A stretch of DNA of 64,000 nt, from contig NZ_JAKMCP010000010.1 of the NCBI RefSeq assembly GCF_022662105.1, positions 1 to 64,000 on the forward strand. Direction: 5' to 3'. The notes under the pieces were generated by a model that did no database searches, was not told where the DNA came from, and saw nothing but the letters and a program-made list of their open reading frames with translations. Below, one piece after another: positions 5,593-10,686 of the stretch. This DNA comes from Aestuariivivens sediminis. Its GTDB lineage: Bacteria; Bacteroidota; Bacteroidia; Flavobacteriales; Flavobacteriaceae. Every line of letters starts with the position of its first letter. Position 1 is the first letter of the stretch. The translations under genes were made by a program, and so were the position numbers.

Positions 5593-5600
5593 TACTTTTG
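5593..5600 (+). promoter_or_regulatory. Probable thr operon -7 promoter box
   Basis: TACTTTTG fits TAnnTTTG and lies 22 bp before the leader-peptide ATG. A TTG sits at 5578-5580, closer than the normal -33 spacing, so the upstream element is uncertain. The position is right for starting a transcript that includes the leader and attenuator. Confidence 0.45.
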
Positions 5601-5622
5601 ACTTGTATTTTATAGCCAGACC

Positions 5623-5730
5623 ATGAATCTTTTAGTCAAAAACACACGTTTAACCTTACCTTCTGTTTTACCGGGTAACACGGCTATTTTTGTAACTACT
5701 ACAATTATCACAACCCCTTGGGGTTGCTAA
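5623..5730 (+). CDS. Threonine operon leader peptide (thrL-like)
   Basis: A 35-codon ORF, too short to be found by usual gene callers, ending 82 bp before thrA. Residues 24-35 read VTTTIITTPWGC: five Thr and two Ile codons in a row (ACT ACT ACA ATT ATC ACA ACC, 5695-5715). Three further Thr codons precede this run. A Thr/Ile codon run before a threonine biosynthesis operon is the hallmark of translation-coupled attenuation, as in the thrL leader of enterobacteria. The RNA downstream can form alternative hairpins, listed separately. There is no sequence similarity to E. coli ThrL beyond composition, so the call rests on position, codon content and adjacent structure. Confidence 0.8.
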   Translation: MNLLVKNTRLTLPSVLPGNTAIFVTTTIITTPWGC

Positions 5731-5791
5731 TTACATATACTTCGGACTATTGTTGTGATTTCTTGAATCACTTCTTTTTAATTATTTTTTT
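5707..5791 (+). promoter_or_regulatory. Threonine operon attenuator: alternative hairpins and terminator
   Basis: Three mutually exclusive pairings are visible. The terminator is GTGATT (5755-5760) with AATCAC (5766-5771), loop TCTTG, followed by a T-rich tract to 5791. A competing 8-bp perfect pairing joins ATCACAAC (5707-5714, inside the leader Thr/Ile codons) with GTTGTGAT (5752-5759), which would block the terminator. A third hairpin, CAACCCC (5711-5717) with GGGGTTG (5720-5726), competes with the second. A ribosome reaching the leader stop (5728-5730) would cover the 5' strand and allow termination. The exact stall position that gives antitermination is inferred, not shown. Confidence 0.75.
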
Positions 5792-5812
5792 CAACAATCA
5801 ATTTATTGAAAC

Positions 5813-8257
5813 ATGCAAGTATTAAAATTCGGAGGAACTTCTGTAGGTTCATCAAAAAATATAAATAAGGTCATTAGTATTTTAGAATCCTATTCTAAAA
5901 AGGATAGGGTTGCCTGTGTGGTATCTGCCGTGGGAGGGATTACCGACAAACTGCTTTTGGCCGGTGAGCAAGCTAAACAAAAAGACCAAACTTTTAAAGA
6001 TACCTTTAATACGATACTGAACATTCACTTAGATATCATAAACGATTTAAATCCAAAGAACAGCCAGGTTCTATTAGACTATTTGGATGACAAATCAACG
6101 GCCTTAAAACAGCTTTTAGAAGGGATTTATTTGATTAATGAATTATCTCCAAAAACATCGGACAAATTGGTGAGTTTCGGTGAAAAAATATCCTCTTTCA
6201 TCATTTCTGAAACCATGAAAAACAGGGGGCTTTCTGTCGCCAGAAAAAACACTCAGGAATTAATCATTACAAACTCCAATTATACAAAAGCCGAGGTGGA
6301 TTACCAAAGGACAAATGCCAACATACAAGCGTATTTTAAATCGACTGAGGAACAAATAACGGTTTTACCCGGTTTTATATCCAAATCCGTTCAAGGAGAG
6401 GAGACCACACTGGGGCGTGGGGGGTCCGATTTTACGGCTGCCATTATTGCTGCGGCCTTACAAGTGGATCAACTGGACATATGGACCGATGTGAGTGGCA
6501 TGTTTACCACCAATCCAAAATTGGTTAAACAAGCCTATCCCATTAAAACCATTTCCTATCAGGAAGCCATGGAGTTATCCCATTTTGGGGCAAAGGTCTT
6601 GTATCCCCCAACCGTGCAGCCTGTGTTGGATTTAAATATTCCAATCCACATAAAAAATACCAATGCACCGGAAGATACGGGGACCATTATTTCTAATGAA
6701 GAAACACGAACAAGTAACCCTGTAACGGGCATCAGTAATATTGGGAATATTGCCTTACTCACCCTTCAAGGCAGTGGGATGGTCGGTATCCCCGGATTTT
6801 CTAAACGCCTGTTTGAAACCCTGGCCCAGGAGAAAATCAATGTTATTTTAATCACTCAGGCCTCTTCAGAACATTCGATTTGTTTAGGTATTGATGCCGG
6901 AGATGCCGAAAGGGCCAAGATGGCGGTAGACCTCATATTTGAAAATGAAATCGCCTTACATAAAATTGATCCTATTATCGTAGAGACCGGCCTGTCTATT
7001 ATTGCTCTTGTCGGGGATAATATGAAAAACCATCAAGGGATTAGTGGTAAGATGTTTAGCACCTTAGGTAAAAACAACATCAATATCAGGGCCATAGCGC
7101 AAGGCGCATCAGAGAAAAATATTTCGGCTGTAATTGCAGATAAAGATGTCAAAAAAGCCCTTAACACCCTTCATGAGCAGTTTTTTGAAGCGAAAACCAA
7201 ACAGCTTAATGTATTCATTACCGGTGTTGGAAATGTCGGTGAACGCTTAGTGGAACAAATTAAACAACAAAGGACCTATTTAAAGGAAAACCTAAAAATA
7301 AATCTTCGTATTATTGGCCTGTCCAATTCAAGAACCATGTGCTTCGATGAGGAGGGCATTGATTTAAAAGATTGGAAAACGATTTTGGCCAATGGTCCGA
7401 AGGCCTCGCTTGATGGCTTTTTACAACAGGTTATTGATCTCAATCTGCGAAACAGTATTTTCGTTGATGTTACCGCAAATGAAGAGGTGGCCCGGTTGTA
7501 TCCCAATTACCTGAGAGAAAGCATTGGCGTGGTAGCCTGTAACAAAATTGCCTGCTCCAGTGCTATGGATACCTATGCCTTACTGAAGCGATTATCGTTA
7601 AAGTATAATGCACCGTTCTTATTTGAAACCAATGTCGGGGCCGGACTGCCTGTCATCGACACCCTGAATAATTTAGTGGCATCAGGGGATAAAATAACCT
7701 CCATACAAGCCGTACTTTCCGGGAGTTTAAATTTTGTGTTTAATCACTTTAATGACACTACCCGATTTTATGACGTTGTAAAACAAGCTCAAGCAGAAGG
7801 CTATACAGAACCGGATCCAAGAATTGATTTAAGTGGCGTTGATGTAGCCAGAAAAATACTTATTTTGGCAAGGGAAAGTGGGATGGACATGAATTTGGAA
7901 GATATTGAAAACAATTCATTCCTGTCTGAATCGGGGTTGCACAGTGATACCGTAGCGGATTTCTTTCAAACCCTGATTGAAGATGAAGACCACTATCAAC
8001 GCTTATATGCAGCGGCCAAAGCAAAACATTGTCGACTTAAGTATGTGGCCCAATTCCACAATGCCAAAGCCAGTGTAGGCCTTCAGGAAATTCCGGAAGG
8101 CCACCCGTTCTATAATTTAGAAGGAAAGGATAATATCGTCATGTTCTATACCCATCGCTATCCGGAGCAACCCATGATTATCAAAGGGGCCGGAGCAGGT
8201 GCAGATGTGACCGCGTCGGGATTGTTCGCCGATATTATTAGGTTAGGAAATAATTAG
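5813..8257 (+). CDS. thrA: Bifunctional aspartokinase / homoserine dehydrogenase
   Basis: An 814-residue cytosolic enzyme catalysing the first step (aspartate phosphorylation) and third step (aspartate semialdehyde to homoserine) of Thr/Met synthesis. The kinase domain begins with KFGGTSVG at residue 4 and carries GRGGSDFTA near 200. Two ACT-type regulatory segments lie at about 320-460 (ITQASSEHSICLGI and GISGKMFSTLGKNNINIRAIAQG). The homoserine dehydrogenase part starts near 465 with the NAD(P)-binding FITGVGNVGE and has the ETNVGAGLPVI catalytic region. Length matches E. coli ThrA (820). It is the first gene of thrA-thrB-thrC, behind the leader peptide and attenuator, so end-product control is likely both by ACT domains and by attenuation. 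Confidence 0.97.
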   Translation: MQVLKFGGTSVGSSKNINKVISILESYSKKDRVACVVSAVGGITDKLLLAGEQAKQKDQTFKDTFNTILNIHLDIINDLNPKNSQVLLDYLDDKSTALKQLLEGIYLINELSPKTSDKLVSFGEKISSFIISETMKNRGLSVARKNTQELIITNSNYTKAEVDYQRTNANIQAYFKSTEEQITVLPGFISKSVQGEETTLGRGGSDFTAAIIAAALQVDQLDIWTDVSGMFTTNPKLVKQAYPIKTISYQEAMELSHFGAKVLYPPTVQPVLDLNIPIHIKNTNAPEDTGTIISNEETRTSNPVTGISNIGNIALLTLQGSGMVGIPGFSKRLFETLAQEKINVILITQASSEHSICLGIDAGDAERAKMAVDLIFENEIALHKIDPIIVETGLSIIALVGDNMKNHQGISGKMFSTLGKNNINIRAIAQGASEKNISAVIADKDVKKALNTLHEQFFEAKTKQLNVFITGVGNVGERLVEQIKQQRTYLKENLKINLRIIGLSNSRTMCFDEEGIDLKDWKTILANGPKASLDGFLQQVIDLNLRNSIFVDVTANEEVARLYPNYLRESIGVVACNKIACSSAMDTYALLKRLSLKYNAPFLFETNVGAGLPVIDTLNNLVASGDKITSIQAVLSGSLNFVFNHFNDTTRFYDVVKQAQAEGYTEPDPRIDLSGVDVARKILILARESGMDMNLEDIENNSFLSESGLHSDTVADFFQTLIEDEDHYQRLYAAAKAKHCRLKYVAQFHNAKASVGLQEIPEGHPFYNLEGKDNIVMFYTHRYPEQPMIIKGAGAGADVTASGLFADIIRLGNN

Positions 8258-8329
8258 ATTGAAATGACATTACATAAGACCAGTTCAAGTTACTGCTCCA
8301 GTGCAGCCGAGAACTATTTAATAGATAAC

Positions 8330-9256
8330 ATGAATGAAATAAGAATATTTTCTCCTGCAACTGTTGCCAATGTATCCTGTGGATTTGATGTCATGGGCTT
8401 TTGCTTAGACCATGTGGGTGATGAAATGGTGATAAGAAAAGTAGAACAAAAAGGAATACACATTGTCCATATCGAAGGTTTTGATTTGCCCTATGACGCA
8501 AAATTAAATGTTGCCGGCGTTTCTGCTCTGGCCATGTATGATACCTTGGATTTAGATTTTGGTTTCGACATAGAAATCTATAAAAACATTAAACCGGGAA
8601 GTGGTATTGGTAGTAGTGCAGCAAGTGCTGTGGGAAGTGTTTTTGGTATGAATGAGCTTTTAAACCGGCCCTTTAACAAAACTGAATTAACAGCCTTTGC
8701 CATCAAGGGTGAAGCCCTGGCCAGTAAATGTGAACATGCCGATAACCTGGCCCCTGCCATATTTGGTGGATTTACCTTAGTTAAAAGCCTAGCGCCCTTG
8801 CAGGTATTGGAAATTCCATCACCGGATAACCTGTATGCGGTCATTATCCATCCGCAAATTGAAATTAAGACCTCCGAGGCAAGAGCCATTCTTCCCGGGC
8901 AAATTTCCCTGGATAAAGCCATAACACAGTGGGCCAATTTTGGAAGTTTAATCCATGCCTTGCATACTTCAAATTACGATTTGATTAAAGCATCATTGCA
9001 AGATGTGGTGGTTGAACCGCACAGAAGCAAGCTTATTCCGTATTACGACCGGGTAAAAGAAGCTGCTTTGCATGCAGGAGCCTTAGGTTCCGGTATTTCC
9101 GGGTCCGGGCCCTCGATTTTCACCCTTTGTGAAGGAATGCAAACGGCCCAACGCGTTGCAGATGAACTAAAAGCAACCTATGCCGAAACAGGAATTGCAT
9201 TCGACATACATGTCTCAAAAATTAATACCGAGGGCATTAGAATAATTAACTCATAA
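8330..9256 (+). CDS. thrB: Homoserine kinase
   Basis: A 308-residue GHMP-family kinase that phosphorylates homoserine. I chose the ATG at 8330 (MNEIRIFSPATVANVSCGFD), because that is where conserved homology starts; the frame is open further upstream to 8264, but those 22 residues are not family-like. The phosphate-binding GHMP motif KPGSGIGSSAASAVGS lies at about 88-103, and the C-terminal GSGISGSGPSIF motif is present. It begins 72 bp after thrA and is followed by thrC after 134 bp. It acts in the cytosol between ThrA and ThrC. Confidence 0.96.
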   Translation: MNEIRIFSPATVANVSCGFDVMGFCLDHVGDEMVIRKVEQKGIHIVHIEGFDLPYDAKLNVAGVSALAMYDTLDLDFGFDIEIYKNIKPGSGIGSSAASAVGSVFGMNELLNRPFNKTELTAFAIKGEALASKCEHADNLAPAIFGGFTLVKSLAPLQVLEIPSPDNLYAVIIHPQIEIKTSEARAILPGQISLDKAITQWANFGSLIHALHTSNYDLIKASLQDVVVEPHRSKLIPYYDRVKEAALHAGALGSGISGSGPSIFTLCEGMQTAQRVADELKATYAETGIAFDIHVSKINTEGIRIINS

Positions 9257-9390: not shown

Positions 9391-10686
9391 ATGAATTATT
9401 ATTCTTTACATAAAAAAGCACCCATTTCAACCTTTAAAAATGCCGTCATAAAAGGGTTGGCACCGGACAAAGGACTGTATTTTCCCGAAAACATCACTCC
9501 CCTACCCGGGAATTTTTTTGATGAGATAGATCGCTTGTCTAACACGGATATTGCCTTTAGGGCCATAAAACAATTTATTGTCCCTGAAATTCCGGAAAAA
9601 GAGTTGCAGCACATTATTGAAGAAACCCTGTCGTTCGAGTTTCCCGTGCTAAGCTTAAACGACACGATGTCCACCTTGGAACTGTTTCATGGACCAACGA
9701 TGGCATTCAAGGATGTCGGGGCCCGTTTTATGGCCCGCTGTTTGGGGTATTTCAATAAGGATAATGACAGGGAGGTCACTGTTTTGGTAGCGACATCGGG
9801 CGATACCGGTGGTGCTGTGGCTCATGGGTTTTTAGGGGTAAAAGGCGTTAATGTCGTTATTCTTTATCCAAGTGGAAAAGTGAGTGCCATTCAAGAAAAA
9901 CAATTAACCACTTTGGGACAAAATATAACGGCATTGGAAGTTAATGGCACTTTCGATGATTGCCAGGCCATGGTAAAACGGGCCTTTTTGGATGCATCAT
10001 TAACCCAAACTATGCAATTAACATCGGCCAACTCCATTAATGTCGCACGATGGCTCCCCCAAATGTTCTATTTTATGTTTGCATATAAGCAATTACATAA
10101 GAAACACAGCAATATCGTCTTTTCAGTGCCCAGTGGTAATTTTGGTAATATTTGTGCCGGGATGATGGCCCAACAATTAGGTTTACCCATAAGGCATTTT
10201 ATCGCGGCAAACAATGCCAATAATGTGGTTACCCGTTATTTACTATCGCAGTTATATGCGCCCAGACCCTCGGTCCAGACGATTAGTAATGCCATGGATG
10301 TTGGTGCACCCAGTAACTTTATCCGTATCGAGGAAATTTATAAAAACAAGTTTGATACCCTTAAAGAAAACCTGTCCTCTTATAGTTTTACCGATGACGA
10401 AACCAGGGCGGCCATGTTAGACCTGTATAATACATACCAGTACGTGGCCGATCCGCATGGTGCAGTTGGGTATTTGGGGTGCAAGGCCTATTTAAAAGAA
10501 AACCCTAATGCCCATTGCGTATTTTTAGAGACCGCTCACTCTACAAAATTCCTGGATGTTGTTGAAGCCGTGATTGAAAAAAAGCAGCCATTGCCGGAAC
10601 AGATTCGGGCCGTTATGGATAAGAAAAAGGTTTCCATAAGCATCAACACCTATGATGATTTAAAAGGTGTTTTGCTTAACCCATAA
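9391..10686 (+). CDS. thrC: Threonine synthase
   Basis: A 431-residue PLP enzyme converting O-phosphohomoserine to threonine. The PLP-binding lysine is in GPTMAFKDVGARF (Lys107). Other family motifs are LVATSGDTGGAVAHGF, the phosphate-binding SANSINVARWLPQ and SNAMDVGAPSNF. The N-terminus MNYYSLHKKAPISTFKNAVIKGLAPDKGLYFPE is typical of the type that starts the family. Length matches E. coli ThrC (428). It is the last gene of the operon; no clear terminator follows immediately. Confidence 0.97.
   Translation: MNYYSLHKKAPISTFKNAVIKGLAPDKGLYFPENITPLPGNFFDEIDRLSNTDIAFRAIKQFIVPEIPEKELQHIIEETLSFEFPVLSLNDTMSTLELFHGPTMAFKDVGARFMARCLGYFNKDNDREVTVLVATSGDTGGAVAHGFLGVKGVNVVILYPSGKVSAIQEKQLTTLGQNITALEVNGTFDDCQAMVKRAFLDASLTQTMQLTSANSINVARWLPQMFYFMFAYKQLHKKHSNIVFSVPSGNFGNICAGMMAQQLGLPIRHFIAANNANNVVTRYLLSQLYAPRPSVQTISNAMDVGAPSNFIRIEEIYKNKFDTLKENLSSYSFTDDETRAAMLDLYNTYQYVADPHGAVGYLGCKAYLKENPNAHCVFLETAHSTKFLDVVEAVIEKKQPLPEQIRAVMDKKKVSISINTYDDLKGVLLNP

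Follow-up and report, generated by a model that had tools for sequence, protein, structure and literature searches.

In E. coli, a short leader peptide with clustered Thr and Ile codons, encoded by thrL, precedes the thrABC operon, and the position of the ribosome serves as the sensor. In the leader-peptide switches tnaC and mgtL, which depend on Rho, the leader ribosome decides whether Rho acts. Detailed knowledge of leader-peptide attenuation comes from proteobacteria; here we describe a putative thr attenuator of the Flavobacteriaceae with a different anatomy. Bacteroidetes/Chlorobi are reportedly named in the abstract of Vitreschak 2004 among the taxa with candidate attenuators. An Rfam-based survey suggested a gamma-proteobacterial origin of the amino-acid attenuator motifs in Rfam (PMC3766115). 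Leader-like ORFs have been mentioned in 5' UTRs of B. thetaiotaomicron (PMC7366714), Rho action within mRNA leaders and the Rho of B. thetaiotaomicron have been treated (PMC13269538), and clues to leader-peptide attenuation before amino-acid operons have come from F. psychrophilum, in which conserved 5' elements of pheA, hisG, and others have no Rfam match (PMC9723704). In the literature that we searched on threonine and other amino-acid attenuators of Bacteroidota, none was named for thr, and an earlier prediction is possible.

The stretch analyzed, called the window below, comprises 64,000 nucleotides of an Aestuariivivens sediminis contig (NZ_JAKMCP010000010.1, positions 1 to 64,000), and all features described here lie on its forward strand. 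It contains thrA (5813 to 8257), encoding a bifunctional aspartate kinase/homoserine dehydrogenase (NCBIfam NF006959, 1029.7 bits against a cut-off of 726), thrB (8264 to 9256), encoding homoserine kinase (TIGR00191 and NF002288, both above the cut-off), and thrC (9391 to 10686), encoding threonine synthase (TIGR00260, above the cut-off). The thrA gene is 87% identical to that of A. sediminicola and 83% identical to that of A. marinum. A second aspartate kinase/homoserine dehydrogenase, with an open frame of about 1134 amino acids, is found elsewhere in the genome (G000:C6:107507-109909) and also in many relatives.

Upstream of thrA, an ORF of 35 codons plus a stop (5623 to 5730; TAA at 5728 to 5730) encodes the peptide MNLLVKNTRLTLPSVLPGNTAIFVTTTIITTPWGC and ends with VTTTIITTPWGC. 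The VTTTIITT that a sequence-only reading of this DNA had pointed out in it is present, and the codons T-T-T-I-I-T-T at 5695 to 5715 are the presumptive regulatory ones. A -7 promoter box, TACTTTTG (5593 to 5600), lies 22 nt 5' of the leader start and follows TAnnTTTG, quoted as the Bacteroidota -7 consensus (PMC9723704). That reading had described the arrangement as enterobacterial in its logic without sequence similarity, and the latter held, since RF00506 (Thr_leader) was unmatched in the window and in the leader. No Rfam family reached its gathering score in the window, and between 5560 and 5830 only two chance-level matches appeared up to E=10, RF00506 not being among them.

The same reading had proposed a comparison of relatives for conserved leader codons and for compensatory pair changes. 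We collected 161 thrA upstream regions (30 + 25 + 106), of which only L030 comes from outside the window's family. They were the best-scoring thrA matches listed, from 234 of 299 genomes matched, so that they lean toward close relatives and are not a random sample. The regions were searched for the palindrome pattern [AG]CCC-n3-7-GGG, which was found within 230 nt 5' of thrA in 137 and between the count limits of 230 and 70 nt in 136, the difference being L159 with the pattern 66 nt from thrA. In these 136 regions, the 12 codons 5' of the palindrome, read in the frame that places ACC in the 5' arm, were 33% Thr and 20% Ile, whereas the other two frames of the same stretch gave 1.5% and 0.5% Thr and 4.3% and 2.5% Ile. 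Stop codons were absent from this stretch in frame (0/136) and occurred in 42% and 17% of the sequences in the other frames. Threonine occupied codons -6 to -1 before the palindrome ACC in 46, 54, 58, 26, 43, and 59% of the loci, so that Thr is most frequent from codon -6 up to codon 0 of the hairpin, which is Thr by the search rule. The leader ORF began with ATG in 132/136 and had a median length of 35 amino acids, and a -7 box lay within 60 nt 5' of the first ATG in 109/136 (median, 19 nt). The Thr content was uneven among single leaders, with a few Thr-poor ones such as L135. The frame-specific run of Thr/Ile codons in 136/161 regions led us to reject a chance ORF, and a short ORF with clustered end-product codons 5' of a biosynthetic operon, the general mark of an attenuator, is what these regions contain. 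Judging from these regions, the ORF very likely encodes a Thr/Ile-sensing leader peptide of the thr operon.

The palindrome near the leader end that the sequence-only reading had noticed, here called hairpin A (CAACCCCTTGGGGTTG, 5711 to 5726; arms 5711-5717 and 5720-5726), carries the last Thr codon in its 5' arm and has the leader stop directly 3' of it. It had been taken for an additional, third state outside the textbook scheme. That scheme, however, has its 1:2 hairpin at the corresponding place, and the comparison makes hairpin A the conserved core of the element and its core switch hairpin rather than an extra. The conserved core consists of ACCC-loop-GGGT, followed by ATAT and then by a C-containing motif. 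Its closing A-T pair was retained in 133/136 and its loops varied (TTTG in 42 of the 136 loci, TTT in 16, CTTG in 14, TTTT in 11, GTTA in 10, TTCG in 1, and others), while the CCC:GGG pairing has no covariation support because the core is invariant, partly through the search rule. Counted from the A of ACCC, the leader stop began at a distance of 6, 12, or 15 nt in 123/136 and of 18 to 30 nt in the remaining 13. The peptide ends differ (TTPWGC*, TTLWGC*, ITPLG*, TTR*, and TTP*) and the ACCC/GGGT arms stay constant, which points to selection on the RNA, although the CCC/GGG core was required by the search. Hairpin A usually lies about 100 nt from thrA.

Behind hairpin A is a conserved unpaired linker (5727 to 5748), consisting of an A/T-rich tract with ACATATA (5733-5739) and then CTTCGGAC (5740-5747), which is replaced by ATATATTCCGTCCG or CATATCATCCG in other clades. 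ATAT occurred 3' of the stem in 115/136 (49 in base shuffles), mostly 8 to 13 nt on, and TCCG, TTCG, TTCA, or ATCC occurred in 114/136 (61 in shuffles) at a median of 17 nt. A pairing of the linker with GGNGG of thrA codons 6 to 8, considered by eye, was dropped, as it fits the clades with TTCCGTCCG but not the CTTCGGAC of the window.

When the transcript was folded with a ribosome-sized mask reaching from -17 to +12 nt of the A site (equilibrium folding with an assumed footprint), hairpin A was the sole element toggled by the modelled ribosome. In the window, its probability was 0.99 for A-site positions through codon 26, dropped to 0.23 at codon 27, and was 0.0 between codon 28 and the stop; over the 136 loci it was 0.90 on the ribosome-free RNA, fell to 0.58 when the A site reached codon -4, and was 0.0 from -3 onward. 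Thus, in this model, hairpin A is an RNA structure switched by ribosome position. With the ribosome stalled at the upstream Thr codons 8, 11, 20, 25, and 26 of the window, nothing in the model kept hairpin A from folding. Severe starvation could therefore produce the wrong state; a larger footprint, or dominance of the later codons, would avoid this.

The element extends beyond these regions. In a second set, which overlaps the first, the leader rule was passed by 63 of 80 named loci, including 8/8 Flavobacterium records (e.g., MKNNRTTYQSSISTPIGVAISVTTTTTP* in L315), and some of the 17 failures kept the hairpin with fewer Thr/Ile codons. Among 39 further thrA loci (36 + 3) inspected outside the family, six passed the leader and hairpin rule (L205, L211, L212, L230, L235, and L239), and three more (L204, L226, and L228) looked similar by eye. 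Classical thr leaders with strong terminators were also recognized by eye, one within the window's family (L189) and five in a single other family (L225, L229, L231, L233, and L234; L221 is less certain). The class thus holds at least two thr leader designs, with apparent switches between the two, to judge by the leaders compared. Within the window's genome, a search with model R1 returned the thr site only among the 150 of 2465 first-look candidates that were scored, the loose pattern, with 57 places, was no more frequent than its reversed control (69), and the hairpin A pattern was absent from the ilvD upstream regions inspected (15 of 16). One ilvD upstream region from another family of the order (L051) has a short ORF, MRVNNVILSIIILLCQL, followed by a terminator-like ACCTTCC...GGAAGGT and a T run by eye, and looks like a classical branched-chain leader.

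The pattern was missing within 230 nt 5' of thrA in 24/161 regions, suggesting that the element is dispensable in some lineages. By eye, two of these (L118 and L173) have a leader further upstream and were left out of the count, one is the classical leader of L189 named above, seven seem to lie directly 3' of another gene, and several have a promoter-like box without a leader, such as L013. The gene end preceding thrA in those seven is presumably that of a threonine dehydratase. A -7-like box (TACWTTTS) near thrA without a leader was seen by eye in L013, L122, L286, L290, L293, L295-L298, and L304. The attenuator has apparently been lost repeatedly, with several cases in Lacinutrix.

By eye, nine loci (L077, L118, L158, L167, L173, L186, L250, L251, and L255) carry about 50 to 210 nt of extra sequence between thrA and the next hairpin downstream of hairpin A, called hairpin B below. 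Five of these pieces (L077, L158, L250, L251, and L255) are copies of one dispersed element of about 90 nt (ATGAAAC ... CATGTGACCATTRAAAAACAATAA ... ACAC), which is placed exactly at start codons, is also found at L352-L376, and is flanked in most places by ATGAAA or a near copy on both sides. Its exact pattern has 25 occurrences, spread over 15 of 199 family genomes; in 20 cases an ORF of at least 60 amino acids begins 33 to 36 nt from the start of the pattern, and the remaining five belong to 90-nt tandem arrays in a single genome. For the element in the five thrA cases, Rfam gave no match at the gathering score.

Hairpin B itself (GTGATTTCTTGAATCAC, 5755 to 5771; arms 5755-5760 and 5766-5771) is weak and is followed by TTCTTTTT, its T-rich tail in the window's genus (5772-5779). 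Its folding energy in the window's genome was -5.3 kcal/mol, compared with -7.2 for hairpin A and -16.6 for the his-leader terminator. A terminator scan listed none at the leader, and the whole fold of 5600-5800 was unremarkable (z, -1.23). The sequence-only reading had assigned the OFF signal to a Rho-independent terminator here; as a conserved feature, however, this did not withstand comparison. Under a strict rule (stem of at least 6 with at least 4 GC pairs and at least 5 T in 7), an intrinsic terminator was found in 0/136 thr leaders against 18/18 hisG upstream regions (L032-L049; the window's own genome, L039), which by eye have a His-codon leader. A middle rule (stem 5, 3 GC, 6 T in 8) gave 1/136 against 18/18, and a lax rule (stem 5, 2 GC, 5 T in 7) gave 15/136, with 4.4 in shuffles, against 18/18. 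The intrinsic terminator of a classical attenuator, a GC stem with a U run before the first structural gene, is thus absent from the thr leaders as a group. The window satisfies the lax rule only, with a 7-bp stem containing 2 GC pairs, and a stem of 5 with 2 GC and 6 T in 8 was found in eight of the 136 leaders, including the window and L002 and L003 of the same genus. The T-rich tail after a small hairpin is present in the window and in these two of its three same-genus relatives, and in this genus hairpin B with its tail may add some intrinsic termination. In the 43-sequence clade of the window, 92% of the hairpin B cells were paired with 23 double-change cells, and the hairpin exceeded shuffles there (mean z, -1.85) and in the remaining loci (-1.17), single sequences reaching P<0.05 in a third of the clade and a quarter elsewhere. 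These pairing and shuffle tests used 135 loci (43 from the clade and 92 others, one locus being too short), and their statistics, like the others given here except the swap test below, ignore the kinship of the mutually related sequences.

In classical attenuation of the enterobacterial type, as the sequence-only reading had it, a stalled ribosome would let 5707-5714 pair with 5752-5759 and so prevent the terminator at 5755-5779. The 8-bp complement (span 5707 to 5759) is indeed exact, and the window has a hairpin with a T-rich tail. In the clade, hairpin B has good support, the same genomes have his leaders that follow the classical scheme, and strong-terminator thr leaders exist in the loci named above. 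Within the clade, the pairing was also stronger than with shuffled downstream sequence (mean z, -1.47). However, in the swap test pairs taken within a species had no advantage over those taken between species (P=0.12), and the 92 other loci gave no signal (mean z, -0.12). Only 75% of its cells in the clade were paired, where slid controls were paired at 30 to 48%, its five double-change cells fell below the nine seen in two of four slid versions, and its eighth pair was retained in 2/42 scored sequences. In the folding model, the pairing had a probability of at most 0.17 in every ribosome state, since it loses to hairpin A and its strand contains most of the regulatory codons, while hairpin B formed in every state of the longer window transcript (0.97 to 0.99). 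Limited to one clade, without co-evolution and improbable in the model, the 8-bp pairing was rejected as the operating switch, and a mutually exclusive antiterminator conserved by compensatory change, as expected of a classical attenuator, was not found in these leaders. Together with the strict-rule count of 0/136, this makes classical attenuation unlikely at this locus.

The lack of a conserved terminator and the usual spacing of hairpin A from thrA would also suit a control of thrA translation or mRNA decay, in which leader translation and hairpin A alter ribosome access or mRNA stability rather than transcription. The extra sequence before thrA in nine loci speaks against a direct control of the thrA start and fits a device acting on the transcript before thrA, and the segment 3' of hairpin A paired with the downstream region no better than shuffles, so that we regard such control as fairly unlikely. 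The recurrence of ACCC/GGGT and of the unpaired ATAT and TCCG-like motifs in several families of the class might instead indicate that hairpin A and the linker form the site of a sequence-reading protein, with the leader ribosome as its competitor. The search rule is itself partly responsible for the invariant core, though, no candidate protein is at hand, and the motifs would be equally accounted for by a conserved pause or Rho signal; a protein site thus appears quite improbable.

We consider it moderately probable that the thrABC leader is a ribosome-occluded, single-hairpin Thr/Ile attenuator, whose OFF step would most likely be Rho-assisted or pause-based. A short transcript would start from the promoter about 20 nt upstream of the leader, and a ribosome would translate the leader to the Thr/Ile codon run that adjoins the 5' arm of hairpin A and ends within it. 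When charged Thr- or Ile-tRNA is scarce, the ribosome would pause on this run and cover the 5' arm, blocking hairpin A. With a good supply, it would reach the stop in or directly behind hairpin A and depart, allowing hairpin A to fold. The folded hairpin, together with the A/T-rich tract, ATAT, and the C-containing motif, would then act as the OFF signal, halting or holding RNA polymerase before thrA; that folding means OFF is suggested by the physiological need of a biosynthetic operon. As neither an intrinsic terminator nor an antiterminator is conserved downstream, this step is most likely aided by Rho or made by a hairpin-stabilized pause, to which the A/T tract with ATAT, the motif, and the excess of C over G also point. 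We infer both the control at the level of transcription and the role of Rho or pausing.

Between hairpin A and thrA, the C/G ratio of the thr set was 2.21, with C exceeding G in 97% of the regions, although composition cannot call Rho sites. The ratio was 1.18 (61%) in 134 other upstream regions, from which thrA was skipped by a start-sequence rule that a few may have slipped past, and 0.94 (33%) in 15 ilvD regions. The window itself has a modest bias (13 C against 8 G), and a rho gene is present in its genome. Of the attenuation proposed in the sequence-only reading, the Thr/Ile leader peptide and an attenuation-like logic remain, while the antiterminator, the conserved Rho-independent terminator, and the third state do not. 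Extending the design to the class is more tentative: Bacteroidia may possess an attenuator composed of a single hairpin at the leader stop and a sequence-specific ATAT/TCCG linker, which would stop transcription with neither intrinsic terminator nor antiterminator and in which the starved ribosome occupies the hairpin.

By comparison, this candidate thr attenuator was recognized in the majority of the Flavobacteriaceae regions studied and at some loci from other families of the class, and annotators gain both a leader peptide and an RNA element to seek before thrA. If its OFF step is driven by Rho or a pause, it would offer a compact system for studying transcription-translation coupling in bacteria without Shine-Dalgarno sequences (PMC6847099).

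Compared with described systems, the sensor is of a known kind, and the single-hairpin, terminator-less build is undescribed in the literature searched. In the same genome and its relatives, the hisG leaders likewise place a codon-run leader peptide, recognized by eye, before a biosynthetic operon, but differ in the strict-rule terminator (18/18 his, 0/136 thr). The F. psychrophilum attenuators are similar in belonging to the same bacterial family, in preceding amino-acid operons, and in matching no Rfam family; neither the thr operon nor the hairpin-linker build, however, is named in the attenuation section of that paper, and the word threonine is absent from its main text (PMC9723704). The C-over-G bias 3' of the thr leader and the presence of rho would suit a switch of the tnaC and mgtL kind, in which the leader ribosome decides whether Rho acts. 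To our knowledge, a short hairpin at the leader stop and a conserved linker are not part of the tnaC and mgtL switches. Unlike E. coli thrL, the flavobacterial leader has no RF00506 match and conserves neither a strong intrinsic terminator nor an antiterminator, and its stop codon lies in or directly behind the hairpin in 123/136. What it has in common with thrL (RF00506) is a leader of Thr/Ile codons before thrABC, with ribosome position as the probable sensor.
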